Part shown: in pieces, positions 27,549 to 28,368 of the stretch
Layout: every line of letters begins with the position of its first letter
Numbering within the stretch: the first letter of the stretch is position 1
Source of the DNA: an uncultured Anaeroplasmataceae bacterium
Lineage (GTDB): Bacteria; Bacillota_I; Bacilli_A; Acholeplasmatales; Anaeroplasmataceae
DNA length: 64,000 nucleotides
Direction: 5' to 3'
Assembly: GCA_944325035.1 (NCBI GenBank)
Contig: CALUYM010000005.1
Coordinates: 1-64,000, forward strand
The notes under the pieces: model-generated
Databases searched by the model: none
What the model was told of the DNA's origin: nothing
What the model saw: the letters and a program-made list of their open reading frames with translations, nothing else
Program-made: the position numbers and the translations under genes

Positions 27549-27728
27549 CTACAGTACTAAAATTAACAGCACCAGAATCAATCCTGGTGAATAAAAGATA
27601 CCTATTAATAAGATATTAATAATATTAAACGGAATATTAAAATTAAACCATTGTCCAAAGAAATTTAACAATAGAATACTCACAATTCCAATCAAAAGAC
27701 TTTTAATTACATATTTAAATAATTTCAT
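27549..27728 (-). CDS. bofA: BofA-like pro-SigK processing inhibitor
   Basis: 59 aa, almost wholly hydrophobic, two membrane segments. The C-terminal PFNIINILLIGIFYSPGLILVLLIL matches the N-P-I-N...G-x-L-G-x-P-G pattern of BofA, which holds the SpoIVFB protease inactive in the outer forespore membrane. It directly follows recR, as bofA does in B. subtilis (dnaX-ybaB-recR-yaaL-bofA). ATG 27728 is preceded by GGTGAT; an ATG-like codon at 27743 is before that site and rejected. Shorter than Bacillus BofA (87 aa). It has its own SigE-type promoter and an unusual hairpin over the start codon. Confidence 0.78.
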   Translation of the reverse strand: MKLFKYVIKSLLIGIVSILLLNFFGQWFNFNIPFNIINILLIGIFYSPGLILVLLILVL

Positions 27729-27752
27729 ACTATCACCATTCAATAGTATGAA
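27724..27752 (-). promoter_or_regulatory. Hairpin covering the bofA start codon
   Basis: Perfect 10-bp arms 27724-27733 and 27743-27752 with a 9-nt loop. In mRNA read through from recR, one arm contains the AUG and the loop contains the GGUG ribosome site. Not a terminator: no T run follows on the minus strand. Confidence 0.75.
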
Positions 27753-27771
27753 AAAAGGACAAAGATTATTA
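27743..27771 (-). promoter_or_regulatory. SigE-type promoter of bofA
   Basis: On the minus strand TAATAAT (27765-27771), 14-bp spacer, CATACTAT (27743-27750) fits KMATATT-N14-CATACAHT at 6 of 7 and 7 of 8 positions. Predicted start near 27736. B. subtilis bofA is known to be SigE-dependent. Confidence 0.65.
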
Positions 27772-28368
27772 ATAATTTCTTCGTCCTTCTAAGGCTTTTA
27801 AGACAGTTGTTTGATCTGCATAAGCTATATCGCCACCTACTGGAAGACCATGCGCAATTCGTGTAATTTTAATATCATAATCCTCAAGAAGGCTCTTTAT
27901 ATAGCGAGCGGTTGTCTCGCCTTCTAACGTTGCATTACAAGCTAAAATTAGCTCTTTAATTTCTCCTTGTTTGACTCTTTCAATTAAATGGGGAATGTCA
28001 ATATCTTCAACCCCAATACCATTCGAAAAATCAATAGCTCCACCTAAGACATGGTAGATACCATGAAAGACTTCTAATTTTTCAATAACAAATAAATCTT
28101 TTATATTTTCTACTACCATAACTTGACTTTTATCACGGGTTTCATCCATACAAATAGGGCATAATTCTTCTTCAGTTAGATTTCCACAAACCTTGCATGG
28201 ATGCAAATTACTTTTTACATTAACTAAGTTTTTAGCAAAAACTTCAATATCGTCTTTATTCATATTTGAATAAATATGAAGCGCCAATCTTTCTGCTGTT
28301 TTTTTTCCAATACCCGGAAGCGATGAGAAATTATCAATTAAACCTAAAATACTTTTAGGATAATCCAT
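27769..28368 (-). CDS. recR: Recombination mediator RecR
   Basis: 199 aa, standard length. Helix-hairpin-helix near residues 15-30 (FSSLPGIGKKTAERLA), zinc finger CxxC...CxxC at 57-72 (CKVCGNLTEEELCPIC), TOPRIM domain from about 80 (VMVVENIKDLFVIE). Acts with RecF and RecO in RecA loading at gaps. Two bases separate it from ybaB; conserved dnaX-ybaB-recR order. Confidence 0.97.
   Translation of the reverse strand: MDYPKSILGLIDNFSSLPGIGKKTAERLALHIYSNMNKDDIEVFAKNLVNVKSNLHPCKVCGNLTEEELCPICMDETRDKSQVMVVENIKDLFVIEKLEVFHGIYHVLGGAIDFSNGIGVEDIDIPHLIERVKQGEIKELILACNATLEGETTARYIKSLLEDYDIKITRIAHGLPVGGDIAYADQTTVLKALEGRRNY

Follow-up and report, generated by a model that had tools for sequence, protein, structure and literature searches.

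The bofA gene in a 64,000-nucleotide stretch from the genome of an uncultured Anaeroplasmataceae gut bacterium (the window) lies behind the housekeeping gene recR, and its start codon is covered by a candidate hairpin whose upstream arm coincides with the -10 box of a putative SigE promoter. The best reading of this region appears to be a developmental insulator, or read-through lock, on bofA, and we give it a probability of about 0.7. In growing cells, polymerase running on from recR would make RNA containing both arms of the hairpin; the arms would fold, the ribosome site of bofA would be hidden, and little BofA would be made. In sporulation, SigE would start transcription right at the Shine-Dalgarno box, downstream of the -10 box, and the resulting RNA, having no 5' arm, would be translated. 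In this genome a terminator after recR would form the first barrier and the hairpin the second. Both the read-through from recR and its effect on bofA translation are presumed here.

The genes are encoded on the minus strand. The source of the presumed read-through transcripts, recR (27769..28368), was identified by its Pfam RecR and Toprim domains, and bofA (27549..27728), encoding an inhibitor of pro-SigK processing, by PF07441 (34.7 bits, cut-off 26.1). The domain search also found genes for a DUF1934 protein and a HARE-HTH protein. The genome (1.55 Mb, about 92% complete) has full-length sporulation sigma factors, which are missing from many members of the family, and, of 160 genomes from the order, just 25 have bofA itself. 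There is a sigE/sigG pair, a sigK-like gene whose product has an N-terminal extension, and a SpoIVFB-type M50 protease gene adjoining a SpoIVFA-like gene. With SpoIVFA and the SigK pro-sequence assigned from size, place and appearance, the known partners of BofA, that is, the putative SpoIVFA/SpoIVFB/pro-SigK module, are encoded in this genome. Two checked family members without these sigma factors (G016, G018) have one M50 protease only. In genus g3 (G004, G010, G014, G021, G027; loci L036-L038, L040, L042), a BofA-family protein is encoded away from recR; despite this protein, full-length sporulation sigma factors were not found in the four members searched for them (G004, G010, G014, G021).

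The intergenic sequence between recR and bofA reads GAAGGACGAAGAAATTATTAATAATCTTTGTCCTTTTTTCATACTATTGAATGGTGATAGTATGAAA on the minus strand. The 5' arm TTTCATACTAT (27753-27743), expected in read-through RNA only, is complementary to the 3' arm ATAGTATGAAA (27733-27723) without a mismatch. The first-pass annotation had described a perfect 10-bp hairpin with the bofA AUG in its stem and GGUG in its loop. The pairing is indeed perfect and is one pair longer, with 11 Watson-Crick pairs, and the AUG (27728-27726) lies inside the 3' arm. Only part of GGUG is in the loop, since two inner G-U pairs, bringing the fold to 13 pairs in total, narrow the loop to the five nucleotides AAUGG. For the 64 ATG-initiated open reading frames of at least 80 amino acids in the window, Watson-Crick stems over the start codon reach at most 6 bp, compared with 11 bp at bofA, and only 0.08% of all 2,474 ATG triplets have a stem of at least 10 bp. 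The 171-nucleotide recR-bofA region folds more stably than all 200 of its shuffled versions (z = -3.2). The predicted cost of opening the ribosome-binding site is 8.9 kcal/mol in the long RNA and 0.8 kcal/mol in the short one. An Rfam search with E-values up to 1 found no known RNA family at the hairpin.

The promoter is placed such that its own transcript would not contain the 5' arm. The putative SigE -10 box CATACTAT (27743..27750, minus strand) lies within the 5' arm, as the first-pass annotation had it, and the best -35 box, TAATAAT (27771-27765), overlapping the recR stop codon, is found 14 bp further upstream, again in agreement with that annotation. We take both boxes, from general knowledge, to agree with the SigE consensus. 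As the -35/-10 match, the 14-bp spacer and a sigE gene are all present, we infer that SigE may use this promoter. The position of the -10 box predicts the transcription start at or next to the first base of the Shine-Dalgarno box GGTGAT (27732..27737), that is, at 27735-27737. Whatever the exact start base, mRNA born at this promoter should be unable to form the hairpin, because the 5' arm holds the -10 box and is thus absent from the transcript. In the whole genome, the pattern CATAnnAT-N2-9-GGnG-N3-9-ATG has 36 matches compared with 2 for the reversed pattern; therefore a start at the Shine-Dalgarno box appears normal for mother-cell-type promoters of this organism, which seem to produce mRNAs with extremely short leaders. 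SpoIIID sites have the consensus WWRRACARNY, and within the bofA promoter the sequence AAGGACAAAG (27755-27764, plus strand) resembles such a site in 9 of 10 positions.

An element absent from the first-pass annotation is an intrinsic terminator, AAGGACGAAGA-N12-TCTTTGTCCTT followed by TTTT, which overlaps the recR stop codon (27788-27751, minus strand). It changes the rank of the hairpin. The proposal that the long RNA is silent and the short RNA is free is supported by the position of the arms, by folding, by the spoVM control described below and by the matching of arms within species across families. However, given the terminator, probably few recR transcripts reach bofA in this genome, and the hairpin is probably a back-up, or second layer. 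Different but equivalent terminators occupy the same place in L052 and L054, two relatives from the genus of the window genome, and in a member of genus g7 (L041); together with the window locus (L001) and one weak case in family f14, they make up the junctions at which a terminator was computed upstream of the bofA promoter.

One possibility is that the terminator does the work in this genome, and the hairpin is a by-product, arising from chance complementarity between CATACTAT, fixed by SigE, and ATAGTATG, fixed by the start codon. Indeed, the terminator before the promoter is stable (-12.1 kcal/mol), and both relatives in the genus retain terminator and promoter with little occlusion of the ribosome-binding site (1.6 kcal/mol in L052 and 2.8 in L054). 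Shuffles of the window locus with the -10 box held fixed are not significant (p = 0.17), because the pairing of the hairpin sits in the -10 box itself. On the other hand, few start codons are covered by a stem as long as 11 bp. Placed in front of the window ribosome-binding site, 97% of other natural bofA promoters would hide it less well than its own promoter does (0.03), and none of the other approximately 31 promoters of the genome with a similar arrangement of -10 and Shine-Dalgarno boxes that were inspected has a stem of this length. On balance, a by-product is unlikely.

The comparison with relatives points to a lock that is retained while its sequence changes. We considered families f1 (the family of the window genome, assigned to Anaeroplasmataceae because its RecR is most similar to that of uncultured Anaeroplasmataceae/Anaeroplasma), f12, f14 and f17, all from one class; bofA genes of more distant Firmicutes (L168, L173, L187, L196), which are not directly behind recR, were left out. 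Nearly all collected recR-bofA junctions of these families have a CATAnnnT box about 6 nucleotides before the Shine-Dalgarno box. The f1 relatives have GAATATT as the -35 box; its position is that of the window box, over the recR stop codon, and the spacer is again 14 bp long. The arms vary between lineages both in sequence and in register. At L070, L071, L075 and L089, the -10 box pairs with the start codon, which is also the arrangement in the window. In genus g6 of f1, it is the spacer, AAAATCATCAT or AAAATCACCAT, that pairs with ATGGTGATTTT, covering the whole Shine-Dalgarno box, and in f17 AAATCATCTCAT pairs with ATGAGGTGATTT. Further arm pairs are TAGAATCAC and GTGATTCTA (L059), ATTGTTTCA and TGAAACAAT (L056), and AACACATCT and AGGTGTGTT (L135). 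At two f17 loci (L138, L146), the genes recR, bofA and tmk form a tight row, and housekeeping transcription may have to cross bofA there.

Despite this variation, arms match the ribosome-binding site of their own locus. The arm duplexes have -7.41 kcal/mol with matched partners and -5.88 +/- 0.23 kcal/mol with permuted ones, and none of 20,000 permutations was as strong, with the caveat that the common descent of the loci makes tests across them less than fully independent. The permutation test is significant inside f1 (0.00025) and inside f14 (0.00015); inside f12 and inside f17 it is uninformative, as the members are too alike. A covariation count for ten family members in a fixed alignment, with 81.7% of cells paired compared with 78.0% after shuffling, is no more than suggestive, since the arms slide in register from species to species.

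Occlusion, defined as the cost of opening the Shine-Dalgarno box and start codon in read-through RNA, was compared with that in upstream shuffles keeping the -10 box. It is 9.34 kcal/mol against 5.03 in f1 (Wilcoxon p = 5e-5), 14.18 against 5.75 in f17 (p = 0.03, five loci) and 7.00 against 4.61 in f14 (p = 3e-5), where only 15 of 37 junctions individually reach 0.05. The difference in f12 is not significant (8.10 against 6.76 kcal/mol, p = 0.16). As a control we used 23 leaders of spoVM, many from the same genomes and of similar layout, with a SigE-type promoter and usually located behind the housekeeping gene rpe. They show no significant excess of occlusion (5.68 against 5.22 kcal/mol, p = 0.22), and the occlusion of f1 bofA exceeds theirs (p = 3e-4). 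In the window genome, spoVM (L248, G000 C2:139347-139457; 29 amino acids, downstream of rsgA-rpe) has a 10-pair stem between the -10 box and the start codon. It had been considered as a second conserved lock; this was rejected, as the relatives do not have the stem, and spoVM then served as the negative control.

Conservation of the hairpin, which the first-pass annotation had proposed as a check, gives a mixed picture: most of the other family members that sporulate have the hairpin, and within the genus the window genome alone has a strong one. Its loss with the promoter kept had been named as evidence against the lock; all three members of the genus have the promoter, one has a strong hairpin, and all three have a terminator. 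The genus relatives would therefore seem, by sequence, to rely mainly on terminators. The f1 junctions without a terminator mostly carry a hairpin, and the window genome has both devices. Two types of device at the same place of the junction fit a single purpose, to stop recR transcription from expressing bofA. A class-wide generalisation, that recR-bofA promoter DNA carries both SigE recognition and the antisense of its own ribosome-binding site, that selection for silence of read-through RNA re-makes this antisense in new sequence and register or swaps in a terminator, and that promoters thus act as RNA insulators in reduced, packed genomes, is tentative, and we lean somewhat against it.

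Translational coupling, in which ribosomes finishing recR would open the hairpin so that read-through bofA is translated only after recR, has a low probability. In genus g6 of f1 and in f17, no more than a few nucleotides separate the recR stop codon from the 5' arm, which would put the start of the arm in the footprint of a ribosome terminating on recR, and coupling may occur in these groups. However, the arm begins 16 nucleotides past the stop codon in the window and is also several nucleotides away in L059, L125 and L135, whereas in L001, L052, L054 and L041 a terminator precedes the arm. Moreover, we know of no need for vegetative translation of a mother-cell gene that has its own SigE promoter. 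It is very improbable that the palindrome is a DNA operator, e.g. for SpoIIID, which is known to repress bofA in B. subtilis and binds in front of the gene there (PMC517825): although the dyad symmetry spans the promoter, the arms vary between lineages in sequence, length and spacing and many of them use G-U pairs, which would be expected of RNA but not of the operator of one protein, and a single operator was rejected, as the arms of different lineages are unlike.

The read-through lock has several known parallels. In IS10 and IS50, RNA reading in from outside hides the ribosome site of the transposase gene. Incoming transcripts would have the same effect at bofA; however, IS10 and IS50 are mobile elements and have no developmental promoter. 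In bacteriophage T4, the ribosome site of gene e (lysozyme), and also of soc, 49 and I-TevI, is sequestered in long early RNA, whereas transcripts from a late promoter immediately before the ribosome site lack the 5' arm and are translated; the effect, shown experimentally, is about 100-fold for gene e (PMC3014915). The likeness to gene e drawn in the first-pass annotation stands, as both traits are seen in the bofA sequence: the long RNA is predicted to sequester the Shine-Dalgarno box and start codon, and the RNA from the nested promoter would exclude the 5' arm. Unlike the phage gene, bofA is a chromosomal development gene, known here from sequence alone. In B. subtilis, a large hairpin was proposed to block spoIIG read-through RNA of sigG and is absent from RNA made from the sigG promoter (Masuda 1988; Sun 1991; reviewed in Mearls 2018, PMC5942855). 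As with bofA, a sporulation gene stands behind another gene, and the predicted hairpin blocking read-through cannot form in RNA from its own promoter. However, the gene and the sigma factor are different, the hairpin has 20 or more base pairs, and the upstream transcription is itself sporulation-specific, whereas bofA follows a housekeeping gene, recR, and its 5' arm falls on the -10 box or spacer of the promoter. A literature search, mostly of papers outside subscription, found no report of such a structure for bofA. The bofA lock would thus be a known type of lock on a new gene, with an apparently unusual overlap of promoter and antisense arm.

If the lock is real, it shows how a sporulation-only protein that blocks SigK activation stays off although its gene closes a housekeeping gene cluster. 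A type of lock so far known mostly from phage T4, and suggested for sigG of B. subtilis, would then have a chromosomal case that is phylogenetically replicated. Close relatives exchange terminator for hairpin, and this makes the purpose of blocking read-through testable. In growing cells, RNA-seq coverage of genes with a lock of this kind would not necessarily indicate protein.
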